From NCBI RefSeq assembly GCF_005780165.1, contig NZ_VAUV01000009.1, positions 62,001-126,000 of the forward strand: a stretch of 64,000 nucleotides of DNA. Direction: 5' to 3'. Origin of the DNA: Phragmitibacter flavus (GTDB taxonomy: Bacteria; Verrucomicrobiota; Verrucomicrobiia; Verrucomicrobiales; Verrucomicrobiaceae). Positions 4,951 through 57,076 of this stretch are shown one piece after another; the first letter of the stretch is position 1, and each line of letters starts with the position of its first letter. The position numbers and the translations under genes were made by a program. Below the pieces are notes generated by a model that was not told where the DNA came from, searched no databases, and saw only the letters and a program-made list of their open reading frames with translations.

Positions 4951-5026
4951 TGGAGCGCCGACGTGTCGTCGGCAAAAACGTCATCCTGCCCCCACAACCC
5001 ATCGAACCACCGACGTGTCGTCGGTT
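4951..5026. repeat. GGAG-headed double-hairpin element, copy 1
   Basis: Two perfect small hairpins separated by about 35 bases. The first, GCCGACG-tgt-CGTCGGC (4957-4973), is preceded by tGGAGC. The second is ACCGACG-tgt-CGTCGGT (5009-5025). The same arrangement occurs at 16604-16663. It starts 12 bases after the oxidoreductase stop codon and lies between convergent genes, so it could serve as a bidirectional terminator. A conserved GGAG head is a known trait of REP sequences mobilised by RAYT transposases, and a RAYT gene is present at 54.1-54.8 kb. Confidence 0.75.
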
Positions 5027-16603: not shown

Positions 16604-16663
16604 GGAGCGCCGACGTATCGTCGGCATAAATTTAGCCAGTCGGACCACCGACGTGTCGTCGGT
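16604..16663. repeat. GGAG-headed double-hairpin element, copy 2
   Basis: Hairpin GCCGACG-tat-CGTCGGC (16609-16625) preceded by GGAGC, then ACCGACG-tgt-CGTCGGT (16647-16663). Both stems match those of the 4951-5026 copy exactly; only the first loop and the spacer differ. It begins 3 bases after the M28 peptidase stop codon. Confidence 0.75.
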
Positions 16664-52342: not shown

Positions 52343-52421
52343 ATTCAGCCTCGCTCCTTGTTGATAACGCTGCCGACCATAGTCGCAAAACCCGAACTGC
52401 CAATTGGAAATAAACCATCTC

Positions 52422-54023
52422 ATGCAAGCCTCATGTAAAAAAATCCATCGTCGCGACACCCTTTTTGCGGGTTTTTTGCTCCTCTCCACCATCACCGCCG
52501 CCCAGGCCGAATGGAACCAGTGGCGCGGCAGCCAGCGCAACGGCATCTCCTCCGACACCACGCCCATCACCTCAACTTTCCCGAAAGACGGACCACCCGA
52601 ACTTTGGAAAAGCGAATCCATTCCCAGCGATCATGATGGCGGCCACAGCAGCCTCGTCGTCTCCGGCGACCACCTCTTCCTCCCCGTTGTCTGGCACACC
52701 GCCAACCCCTCCGAACAACGCCTCGTCGACGGCGAAGTCCTCGCCTCCCTCGGCCATCGCGGCACCAACCTCCTCGGACCCGAACTCACCGCCAAAATGG
52801 AAGCCGCCCGCCATGACATGCCGCGGCTCCGCGGCACCGCCCTTGATGAATGGGCCCGCACTTGGGTCAAAGAGAACTTCTCCGAAGAACAACGCCTCAT
52901 CCTCGGCTCCTGGGCCGAAGGCCGGTTCAAACAAGGCAAACAAGCCATCGACCTCGCCATTCTCGACCAGCTCAACAAGCCACCCAAAAAACCCTTCGAC
53001 AGCCCTGCCGAACTCAACGCCTGGCTCGATGAACTGAACCTCGATCCTTCCGTCCGCGAACGCTTCATCAAAGCCGTTCCCAACACCATCAAAAGCGCCG
53101 AAGATGTCGTCTTATGCCTTGATGCCAAATCCGGCAAAACCCTCTGGAAATTCAAGGCCGAAGGCCACCCCACCGGTCGCACCAACGCCTCCACTTGCGC
53201 CGTTGCCGACGACCGCGTTTACGCCGTTCTCAGCACCCACCTCTACGCCATCGACGCCAACTCCGGTGCCCTCATTTGGAAAACCCCCGTCAGCAAAAAC
53301 GGCAAAGGCAGCTCCCCCCTCTATGCCGACGGCAAAATCTACCTCCTCGAAGGCACCCTCATGTGCGTCAACGCCGCCGACGGCCAAATCCTCTGGACCA
53401 ACAAAGAAACCAAAGGCAGCAACTCCAGCCCCATCCTGTGGAAAACCTCCGACGGCCTCACCACCCTCGTCTGCCAGACCAACAATAATCTCACCGGCAT
53501 CGATCCCGTCACCGGCGAACTTCGCTGGAAAACCGAAGGTGGAGGCCAGTCCACCCCCGTCGCCCAGGACGATCATCTCGTGATCCTCAGCAGCACCAAA
53601 GGCGTTGCCCTCCGTTGCTACCAAGCCCAACCCAACGCCCCTCCAAAAACCCTCTGGACCCACGACTTCCTATCCTCCCGCTACAGCGCATCCCCCCTCA
53701 TCCACGGCGACGAAGTCTATCTCCTCGGCAGCAGCCGCCACCTCTGCCTCAACCTCGCCGACGGCAAAGTCCATTGGGAATCACAAGTCGAGTCCACCAT
53801 CTCCTCCCCCGTCCTCATCGACGGCAAATTGGTGATCATGGACAACAACGGCACCTTCCTCAACCTCCTCAAAGCCACCCCCGAAACCTACACCCCCCTT
53901 GGCCGCACCCGCATCAGCGCCATGTGGTGCCCCACCCCCACCCCCTGGCAAGGCCGACTCATCATCCGCAAGAAAGACCACGTCGCGTGTTACGACCTCC
54001 GAGAGGGAGGCAATGGCCAATAG
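52422..54023 (+). CDS. Secreted PQQ-type beta-propeller protein
   Basis: 533 residues from ATG 52422 (52404 is in frame too). Signal peptide ending TAAQA. The region after residue 220 is a row of propeller blades, each with a 'GKTLWKF', 'GALIWKT', 'GQILWTN', 'GELRWKT' or 'GKVHWES' phrase: the PQQ-like repeat. An N-terminal 'WNQWRGSQRNGIS' opens the fold, and a helical insert lies between residues 110 and 220. Such proteins are very numerous in this phylum and seldom bind PQQ; no catalytic assignment is made. Divergent from the L,D-transpeptidase gene. A REP copy follows directly. Confidence 0.88.
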   Translation: MQASCKKIHRRDTLFAGFLLLSTITAAQAEWNQWRGSQRNGISSDTTPITSTFPKDGPPELWKSESIPSDHDGGHSSLVVSGDHLFLPVVWHTANPSEQRLVDGEVLASLGHRGTNLLGPELTAKMEAARHDMPRLRGTALDEWARTWVKENFSEEQRLILGSWAEGRFKQGKQAIDLAILDQLNKPPKKPFDSPAELNAWLDELNLDPSVRERFIKAVPNTIKSAEDVVLCLDAKSGKTLWKFKAEGHPTGRTNASTCAVADDRVYAVLSTHLYAIDANSGALIWKTPVSKNGKGSSPLYADGKIYLLEGTLMCVNAADGQILWTNKETKGSNSSPILWKTSDGLTTLVCQTNNNLTGIDPVTGELRWKTEGGGQSTPVAQDDHLVILSSTKGVALRCYQAQPNAPPKTLWTHDFLSSRYSASPLIHGDEVYLLGSSRHLCLNLADGKVHWESQVESTISSPVLIDGKLVIMDNNGTFLNLLKATPETYTPLGRTRISAMWCPTPTPWQGRLIIRKKDHVACYDLREGGNGQ

Positions 54024-54027
54024 CGTA

Positions 54028-54053
54028 GGAGCGGCGGTCTCCAGGCCGCCGTC
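54028..54053 (+). repeat. REP-like sequence, single copy
   Basis: GGAG head, then CGGCGG-tctccagg-CCGCCG stem-loop and tc, 4 bases after the PQQ gene's stop codon and followed by a run of seven A. The same unit is found in the inverted pair at 54798-54859. It lies 25 bases from the 3' end of the RAYT gene. Confidence 0.8.
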
Positions 54054-54078
54054 AAAAAAACCAGCACCCACCCCCACC

Positions 54079-54759
54079 TCATTCACCCATCCCCTTGGCC
54101 AACTCCCCTTCCCAAATCCGATACTCCCCATCTCTCAACCCAGCCTTCGCCGGATTCCTTCGAATATAACGAACACAATTCGCAAGATGCTTCTCATCTC
54201 GAATCGCTCTATCAAAGTAATCCTTCTGCCAAACCGCCCCCACTTCCCCATTGACCTCATTCATCAAACGCGCTGTATAACTTTTCCAACTGCCGACCAA
54301 ATTCCCAATCACCTGCCCTGCCAACAGCTGAAAAAGCACGTGGACATGATTAGGCATGATCACCCAAGCCACCTGTCTGCAAAGACTGCCCTCGAAATAC
54401 CCCAACGCATTCGCCACCATTAAAGACACGCCCTCATCACGCAAACGGCAACTCCCCAAGTTCTGATCCAGCAACCGTTCCAACTTACGAGTAAACGCCC
54501 GTTGCACCACCTGCTCAACATCCGGAGTCATCATCTTCCGATAACTCGCCAACATGGCCAGCCTATGGTCATCAAGCTTCTGCATCACCTCTTTCGGCAA
54601 GGAGTCTGCAAGCCGAAAAGTCACAAAATAAAACATCCCTTCTCGTTGCCAGTGAGGCAGCCGATTCCTGCTTCGTTCAACCGGTTCGATTGAGCTATTA
54701 AGAAAAGCGAGCGGGGGCAACTCTTTCATGCCATCAGCATGAAATATCCCAATGATCAA
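54079..54759 (-). CDS. REP-associated tyrosine transposase (RAYT, Y1 HUH superfamily)
   Basis: 226 residues (ATG 54729 would give 216). The HUH nuclease signature is 'WVIMPNHVHVLFQLL', and the tyrosine lies in 'YIRRNPAKAGL'. 'MFYFVTFRLADSLP' and 'VWQKDYFDRAIRDEKHL' complete the family pattern. RAYTs cut and mobilise REP hairpins near their own gene. REP-like units with a GGAG head flank this gene on both sides (54028-54053 and 54798-54859), so the pairing is strongly supported. The gene appears intact. Confidence 0.92.
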   Translation of the reverse strand: MIIGIFHADGMKELPPLAFLNSSIEPVERSRNRLPHWQREGMFYFVTFRLADSLPKEVMQKLDDHRLAMLASYRKMMTPDVEQVVQRAFTRKLERLLDQNLGSCRLRDEGVSLMVANALGYFEGSLCRQVAWVIMPNHVHVLFQLLAGQVIGNLVGSWKSYTARLMNEVNGEVGAVWQKDYFDRAIRDEKHLANCVRYIRRNPAKAGLRDGEYRIWEGELAKGMGE

Positions 54760-54797
54760 TCAAGCCAATATTCAACCCCTCGCTCCAAAACACAGGA

Positions 54798-54859
54798 GGA
54801 GCGGCGGTCTCCAGGCCGCCGTCACCCATCAACCACGGCGGCCCGGAGACCGCCGCTCC
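54798..54859. repeat. BIME: two REP-like units in inverted orientation
   Basis: One REP (54798-54823) and its inverted copy (about 54834-54859), with a 10-base spacer. Each has a GGAG head and a CGGCGG/CCGCCG stem, and the inner loop differs at one base (tctccagg against tctccggg). Together they form one long hairpin that touches the nasC stop codon (54860-54862) and lies 39 bases from the RAYT start. Confidence 0.85.
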
Positions 54860-57076
54860 TCACCTCAAATCCTTCTCCACCCTCACCGCACAAAACTTAT
54901 AATTCGGCTGCCTGCTATACGGGTCCACCACCCCAATCGTCAGCTCATTCACCTGCGCATAATGCATCGGCAGAAAAACCTGCCCGCGCCCCACCGTCGC
55001 CGTCACCCGCGCCACCGCCTCCACCGTCCCACGTCGCGACACCACCCTCACCATTTTCCCATCGACCACCCCCAGGCCCTCCGCATCTGCCGGATGCACC
55101 TCCACCCACAACTCCTCCGAATACAACTTCCGTAAAATCGCCGACTTGCTCGTCCGCGTCTGCGTATGCCACTGCGCCGAAGTCCCCCTCCCCGTCAACA
55201 ACACCAACGGATACTCTTCGCTCACCTTCTCCGGCACTTCACGCGGCGTCTCAAACACCAACCTCGCACGCCCGTTCGCCGTAAAAAATAGCCCATCCTC
55301 AAACAACCTTCGTTCCTTCCCCACAACATCCCCATCCCCCGCCTTCAACGGCCACTGCACCCCACCCTCCCGCGCCAACATCGCATACCCCTCAATCCCC
55401 GAAATCTCACAAGGCTGACCCACCGACACTGCCTTCATTTTCTCAAACACCACCTCCGGCGACGTCCATCCACGAAACAACTCCCCACATCCCCAATACT
55501 CGGCCACCAACCGAAAAATGTGAAAATCCGCCAGCGCCTGCCCCGGCGCCCGGCTCACCTTCCGCCCCAACCCGAACCGCCGCTCCGAATTAATAAACGT
55601 CCCCTCCTTCTCTCCCCAACCCGCCGCCGGCAACACCAAATCCGCCAGCTGCGCCGACTCCGTATTCCCAAACATGTCCTGCACCACAAAAAAATCCAGC
55701 TTCCCCACCAGCTCCTTAAACCGCTTCTGATTCATCCACGAATGCGCCCCATTCGTCGCCACCATCCACAAGCCCTTGATCTTCCCCTCACCAATCCCCT
55801 CAATGATCTGATCATACGCCCAGCTCCCCCGATCCGGAATCCGCCCCACCTCCATCCCCAGCGCACCCGCCACCTTTTCGCGATGCTCCGCCTTCGTGAA
55901 ATCATGCCCCCCCAATAAGTTCGTCGTGTTCGAGAACAACCGCGATCCCATTGCATTACACTGACCCGTGATCGAATTCGCCCCCGTCCCGGGCCGCCCC
56001 ATGTTCCCCGTCATCAACGCCACATTGATGATCGCCTGCGCCGTCCGCGTCGCCTCATGACCCTGGTTCACCCCCATCGTCCACCAGAACGACACCCGCT
56101 TCCCATTCGCCACCGTCCGCGCAAACAACTCAAACTCCTCCGCACTCAAACCCAACACCTCCAAATGATCCGCAAATTCAAAATCCTTCAAAAACTCCAC
56201 TAACTCAACATACCCATCCACATGCCTCTCCACATACTCCAAGTCCACCCTCCCATTCACCACCAACCAATGCGCCAAACAATAAAACAACACCAAATCC
56301 GACTTAGGCTTAATGGCTAAGTGCTGCGTCGCCGCCATCGCCGTCTCTGTCTTTCTCGGATCAATCACCACAATCTCCGGTCCGTGTCGATTCCGCTCCA
56401 CCCGCTGCCACATGATCGGGTGGGCAATGCACGGATTCGCCCCCACAAACACCAGCACATCACTCTCCTCAAAATCCGCATAGGTATACGGCGGCGCATC
56501 AAACCCAAAACTCTCCTTATACGCCGTCACCGCCGTCGCCATGCACTGCCGCGTATTCCCATCCCCATGCACCATCCCCATCCCAAACTTCGCCAGCGCC
56601 CCTAAAAAAAACATCTCCTCACACATGATCTGACCCGTGCTCAAAAACGCCACCGACTCCGCCCCATGCTGATCCATGATCGCCCCAAACCTCCGACAAA
56701 ACACCTGCAACGCCTCATCCCAATCCACCGCATTCCCATCCAGCATCGGCACCACCGCCCGATCCTTCGCCCCCAGCGGCGTCAACGCCTCCCAACCCTT
56801 CGGACACGCCATCCCCAAGTTCACCGGATAACTCGAATCCGCCGTCAAGTTGATCGCCTGCCCCCGCTCATCCACATGCACCTTCAACCCGCACCCCGTC
56901 GAACAAAACCCACAAACCGAAGTCACCGTCCCATGCGGCGTCATCCTCAACGGCACATTCCCAAACCCAAACTTCCCCGGACTCTGCACCAGTTCTCTAG
57001 TCATCGGCCCATCCAACGACCTCAACAAGCCCGGCAACTTAAAATCGAGTCTCCTCTTCATCTTCGTCTTCATCAA
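54860..57076 (-). CDS. nasC: Assimilatory nitrate reductase catalytic subunit (NasC/NarB type)
   Basis: Molybdenum bis-MGD enzyme that reduces nitrate to nitrite. 738 residues. A [4Fe-4S] site is formed by Cys 55, 58, 62 and 91 ('[12 protein letters not shown]', 'GMACPKGW'). The core has '[20 protein letters not shown]', '[20 protein letters not shown]' and '[20 protein letters not shown]'; the C-terminal MGD-binding domain has '[19 protein letters not shown]'. There is no Tat signal, so it is cytoplasmic. Its ATG overlaps the stop of the DmsBC-like gene. That gene pair and the siroheme enzyme define the pathway. Confidence 0.93.

Follow-up and report, generated by a model that had tools for sequence, protein, structure and literature searches.

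Is a Y1 transposase gene that lies between three hairpins headed by GGAG a RAYT with its own REPs, and how does such a head fit what is known of REP guides? The question was raised by positions 54028–54859 of the window, which is the whole stretch of DNA analysed (64,000 nucleotides, G000:C9:62001–126000, from a genome of 5.9 Mb in 44 contigs). A reading of the letters without database searches, hereafter the sequence-only reading, had described the locus as a RAYT gene with cognate REPs and an inverted REP pair (BIME). It had also taken the system to be possibly still active.

The open reading frame at 54079–54759 on the minus strand encoded 226 amino acids from a TTG start at 54759; an in-frame ATG at 54729 is an alternative start, which would give 216 amino acids. 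The product matched the Pfam model Y1_Tnp with 34.8 bits (cut-off 23). It matched the NCBIfam model REP_Tyr_transpos (NF047646) with 83.6 bits, narrowly above the cut-off of 80, while the same gene obtained 79.3 bits in the genome scan and thus lay near the limit. Its segment between the HUH motif and the catalytic tyrosine, both included, matched the E. coli TnpAREP (PDB 4er8; E = 9e-5). As in other RAYTs, the domain combined an HUH motif (H138-V-H140, residues 138–140) with a single catalytic tyrosine, Y198, in an intact Y-x3-NP motif (Y198-x3-N202-P203). Also present were W177, Q178, Y181, D183, R184, R187 and H191, and W177, Q178, D183 and R187 of the guide region were intact. The stretch ahead of the HUH motif is longer in verrucomicrobiotal RAYTs than in the E. 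coli TnpAREP (HUH at residue 138 versus about 59). A motif LDxGxGxCxL in this stretch was common to the window RAYT (residues about 54–130) and the RAYTs of loci L056, L058, L061, L062 and L065.

The 26-base REP GGAGCGGCGGTCTCCAGGCCGCCGTC occurred exactly at 54028–54053 (REP 1) and 54798–54823 (REP 2), both on the plus strand, and with two mismatches at 54834–54859 on the minus strand (REP 3). No match of this type appeared in 100 shuffles of the window, so that the chance expectation is nil. The REP consists of the guide GGAG and a 7-bp stem (CGGCGGT/GCCGCCG) closed by the loop CTCCAG. The guide of REP 1 (54028–54031) points away from the RAYT gene. REP 2 and REP 3 are the inner and outer members of a BIME (54798–54859), the guide of REP 2 pointing towards the RAYT gene and that of REP 3 lying at 54859–54856. 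As expected of a BIME or REPIN, these two closely spaced inverted REPs (10-nt spacer) fold as one long hairpin of 62 nt (−33.6 kcal/mol as DNA, z = −11.8). Counted from the TTG start, one hairpin lies 25 bases past the 3' end of the gene and the inverted pair 39 bases ahead of its 5' end, which confirms the layout given by the sequence-only reading, as well as its statement that the three units are nearly identical. The neighbours, mentioned for context only, are a gene for a PQQ_2 beta-propeller protein (52404–54023, plus strand), whose stop lies 4 nt ahead of REP 1, and a gene for a molybdopterin oxidoreductase resembling assimilatory nitrate reductases (54860–57076, minus strand), whose TGA stop directly abuts the guide of REP 3. 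The unit of three REPs and the RAYT gene fills the gap between these convergent genes entirely.

A pattern search of the whole genome with up to three mismatches, as the sequence-only reading had suggested, yielded 8 sites; apart from the flanking REPs themselves, each of these differed from the flanking unit by at least two bases. With more diverged copies as its basis and the stem register corrected, the covariance model R2 detected 24 sites on 13 contigs at E ≤ 8e-4, the three copies beside the RAYT gene included. Three inverted pairs were found among them, all with outward guides: that of the window and those at C6:257347/257404 and C14:148534/148575. In the aligned copies, 94.6% of the stem cells were paired, compared with 82.6 ± 1.7% in shuffles, and 21 stem cells had changed on both sides (shuffles 7.4 ± 2.0; reached in 0/500). 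G-C, A-T and T-A all occurred at the same stem pair. Twenty-two copies were located outside predicted genes; of positions drawn at random from the same loci, 70% fell inside (binomial P = 3e-10). This count was made with a codon-usage caller and starts chosen by score; calling genes from the first possible start places 7 instead of 2 of the 24 REPs inside genes. In 28 related genomes, an earlier model (R1) gave no match at E ≤ 0.01 in 19 and only weaker ones in the rest. Since the stem of R1 was shifted by one column, its matches count as sequence hits only, and the weak ones in G003–G006 and G014 are uncertain. Copy number, stem covariation, intergenic placement and the search of relatives together show that this is a genuine REP family, whose copies lie mostly between genes and which is largely confined to this genome. 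The expectation that further REPs would be clustered between genes was thus borne out, and the interpretation as a RAYT with cognate REPs is supported by this family as well as by the two protein models. The guide was GGAG in 17 of the 24 copies and GGAA in the other 7 (L191–L197), whose stems were intact; the latter are either defunct or use a second form of the guide.

The genome encoded 12 RAYT-like genes according to the profile scan. Of the RAYTs checked other than that of the window, eight had hairpins on both sides, and the hairpin differed from one to the next, as expected if each REP family has one RAYT. The RAYT at C13:106679 was associated with a hairpin family of 17 sites, 7 of them exact. 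For the RAYT at C5:353165 there were about 130 sites, with 36 exact matches to a 19-base pattern versus 11 for the reversed control pattern. Each of the 30 genomes searched within the host's taxonomic family contained RAYT-like genes (4 to 34 per genome), and very many matches were counted in G037 (36), G011 (30) and G055 (34). Two pairs of the hairpin CCGACGnnnCGTCGG were seen in the window, at 4952–4973 and 5004–5025 and at 16604–16625 and 16642–16663, all on the plus strand. They are part of the family of about 130 copies that goes with the RAYT at C5:353165, which has an alanine at position 95. Each pair has two different guides: GGAG precedes, and GGAC (in one case GAAC) follows at a distance of about 38–52 nt. 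Such same-strand pairs are reminiscent of the two ends, left and right, of IS200/IS605 elements; the family also includes other spacings and neighbouring GGAC-GGAC copies. At two loci, L058 (G000:C5:264500–268500) and L062 (G000:C5:351500–355500), the RAYT frames extend as long open frames of 565 and 664 amino acids. Their extra parts are translated REPs with repeats such as TGLQPVGEPGILP and DDRRNVGGP, and they join the RAYT to downstream sequence that resembles, by reading only, a hydrolase and a glycosyltransferase.

The suggestion that the window system may still be active found no support: the family is small, and no dispersed copy lies within one mismatch of the flanking REPs, which argues against a recent spread of this REP. 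The unit could therefore be a relic, that is a once mobile RAYT and its REPs that no longer move, the gene being retained for a host function or decaying slowly. We regard this as a serious possibility, somewhat short of an even chance. It would account for dispersed copies that are at least two bases off the flanking REPs, for GGAA in place of GGAG in some of them and for stems that diverged through paired changes. Against it stand an open reading frame with all catalytic residues, the near-identity of the three flanking REPs, and the young families of other RAYTs in the genome, with 7 exact copies (C13) and 36 copies exact to the 19-base pattern (C5).

Comparisons with relatives bore on the mobility of such units. 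Two congeneric genomes contained the same GGAG-guided REPtron (L321, G012:C5:319446–322136; L323, G002:C1:29032–31725), 87.6% identical over 978 bp between unrelated flanks. On the right the similarity stopped at the outer REP's guide, and on the left it continued for some 75 bases more. This pair agrees with movement of the whole unit. When the flanks of L321 and L323 were searched for in the partner genome, neither was found, so that horizontal transfer or the turnover of an island would also explain the pair. G002 and G012 were not collinear when compared over 200 kb each. No PQQ-like gene was found beside the oxidoreductase gene in relatives, and the intergenic gaps at two oxidoreductase loci, compared for empty sites, had strongly diverged.

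A scan of a species-level genome collection retrieved 80 relatives of the window RAYT with 34–48% identity, mostly from Verrucomicrobiota. After the set had been enlarged from genomes of the family and from other hosts, it comprised 142 distinct RAYTs whose motif could be read. A hairpin family was present on both flanks of 116 of these (82%), compared with 15 of 600 random places (2.5%). This contrast speaks against the idea that the hairpins serve convergent genes as bidirectional terminators or as structures at the mRNA ends, their closeness to the RAYT gene being incidental. Such a role would suit their position, with REP 1 beginning 4 nt past one stop codon and REP 3 abutting the other, and the intergenic placement of the dispersed copies. 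Yet each RAYT examined in the genome had a different hairpin, the stems are not followed by a T-run and the unpaired guide is conserved, which makes a terminator function improbable as the explanation of the locus.

The same architecture with GGAG-type guides surrounded most of the relatives. Among the 82 loci with a clear guide, 57 had G as the second base (GGAG 45, GGAC 10, GGTG 2) and 25 had T (GTAG 19, GTGG 6). For guide calling, the bases at the stem foot were compared with a predefined set of tetranucleotides, blind to the protein, and 34 unclear loci were excluded. These counts are not population frequencies, because relatives of the window RAYT and good matches to NF047646 are over-represented among the RAYTs. 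The literature describes the REP guide as GTAG with the variants GYAG, GYRG, GTRG, GTMG and GTGG (PMC3733652), and a published survey used GTAG/GTGG as its search rule (PMC6006769). We found no mention of a GGAG guide in the published REP definitions and reviews examined, e.g. PMC3733652 and PMC6006769. The sequence-only reading had presented it as known that RAYTs process REPs headed by GTAG or GGAG. The first half of this holds, with GTGG documented in addition; GGAG is absent from the papers examined. As GTAG and GTGG are the documented forms, what sets the system apart from textbook knowledge is its GGAG head. Neither GTAG nor GTGG stood at the foot of the window hairpins, and the system was consequently not filed under the GTAG REP superfamily or the canonical GT[AG]G REPtrons. 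What is new is thus the GGAG guide ahead of the hairpin, the combination of a RAYT with REPs being itself of a known kind. To call the phylum little studied in this respect was fair, although REPs of Opitutus terrae were catalogued in 2013 (PMC3733652). So far, GTAG/GTGG has been the hallmark by which the REPs of a RAYT are recognised, and the published genome searches examined filtered for it. Should a large branch generally use GGAG-type guides, many REP systems will have escaped notice.

Guide type, defined by the second base (G or T), went along with the residues at three positions near the guide-contact region of the protein (E. coli numbering). Position 98 was Y in 54/57 RAYTs of the G type and S, A or N in most of the T type. 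Position 101 was R or T in all 57 of the G type and H in 20/25 of the T type, and position 108 was H in 53/57 of the G type. The raw association of residue 101 with guide base 2 was strong (Fisher 9e-15). On a tree calculated without the columns concerned, the guide label needed about three switches, one of them forced by well supported branches, so that common descent accounts for the association equally well. Coevolution of residue 101 with guide base 2 was therefore dropped as an explanation, three switches being inseparable from descent; the association is worth pursuing but does not count as evidence for coevolution. According to the tree, GGAC arose about ten times within the G type. Q95 was lost in 6/10 GGAC loci versus 3/45 GGAG loci (Fisher 5e-4), the number of independent pairs being too small for testing. 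A tentative proposal, which we consider less likely than not, is that besides the known guide code a second one is widespread among RAYTs. It would be the code of a large branch, usual in Verrucomicrobiota and also found in Chloroflexi, Methylococcaceae and others, whose members would read GGAG (with the offshoots GGAC and GGTG) via Y98/R101/H108 in place of the S, A or N98 and H101 of GTAG readers. Changes of guide base 4 (GGAG to GGAC, about 10 on the tree, Q95 lost in 6/10) would then re-aim cleavage, e.g. from CT to GT. Enzymes with different guides would also form a natural set for studying how the guide picks the cut site, by comparison of enzymes that differ in a single guide base.

The loop of the window REPs offers another conceivable role for the guide, since its CTCC is the exact complement of GGAG and the two could pair as a new regulatory feature. 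This is very improbable: copies with GGAA still have CTCC, a full complement was found in 11 loops across the 82 families versus 9.2 in shuffles (p = 0.29), and the pairing was rejected because it failed the covariation test. That the unit is an IS200/IS605 insertion sequence with subterminal hairpins, as its Y1 fold and the hairpins on either side might suggest, has next to no probability, given an IS200 score of 21 bits (cut-off 55), a whole unit at one locus only instead of several near-identical ones, REPs that occur alone at many places, and the RAYT signature with its REP_Tyr_transpos match.

The window unit is thus very probably a REPtron, in which a RAYT (TnpAREP) gene is accompanied by a dedicated REP family with the guide GGAG; the gene product would act as an HUH/Y1 single-strand endonuclease. 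Its mechanism can be proposed by analogy with the TnpAREP proteins of E. coli, Stenotrophomonas and Marinomonas (PMC8266576), from which we infer binding, cleavage, the cleavage site and mobility. The RAYT would recognise the REP in its folded, single-stranded form through the four-base guide together with the hairpin. Y198 would then nick the DNA close to the REP, the dinucleotide being selected by the guide; cleavage is predicted to be strand-specific. Transfer and rejoining of the strands would copy or move REPs or inverted REP pairs, mostly to sites between genes. Guide bases 3 and 4 choose CT as the cleavage dinucleotide (PMC8266576), and as these bases (A and G) are the same in GGAG, the published guide model predicts cleavage at CT. 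A conserved CT at a fixed position beside the REPs was not found.

Among known systems, the E. coli REPtron (group 2, PDB 4er8; PMC8266576) shares with the window unit the HUH/Y1 core with Y-x3-NP, a gene flanked by REPs and inverted REP pairs, and a guide 5' of the hairpin. Its W94-Q95...R104 are kept as W177, Q178 and R187. It differs in its guide, GTAG instead of GGAG, in which the E. coli enzyme tolerates no change (PMC8266576). The window RAYT also has D for E100, R for H101 and Y for F98 and a longer stretch ahead of HUH, and the window stem is perfect, without a bulge. The REPtrons of group 3 or subclass 2.5 (Stenotrophomonas, Marinomonas, Pseudomonas; PMC8266576, PMC6006769) resemble it in their short perfect palindromes, in D at position 100 and in an R that sometimes replaces H101, whereas their guide is GTAG. 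The GTAG REP superfamily (Di Nocera 2013, PMC3733652) comprises 24 families, including GTAG-20 of Opitutus terrae, mostly with GTGG (PMC3733652). The window guide, with G as its second base, lies outside all variants listed there; palindromic REPs with a terminal guide, dimers, private stems and the phylum are shared.
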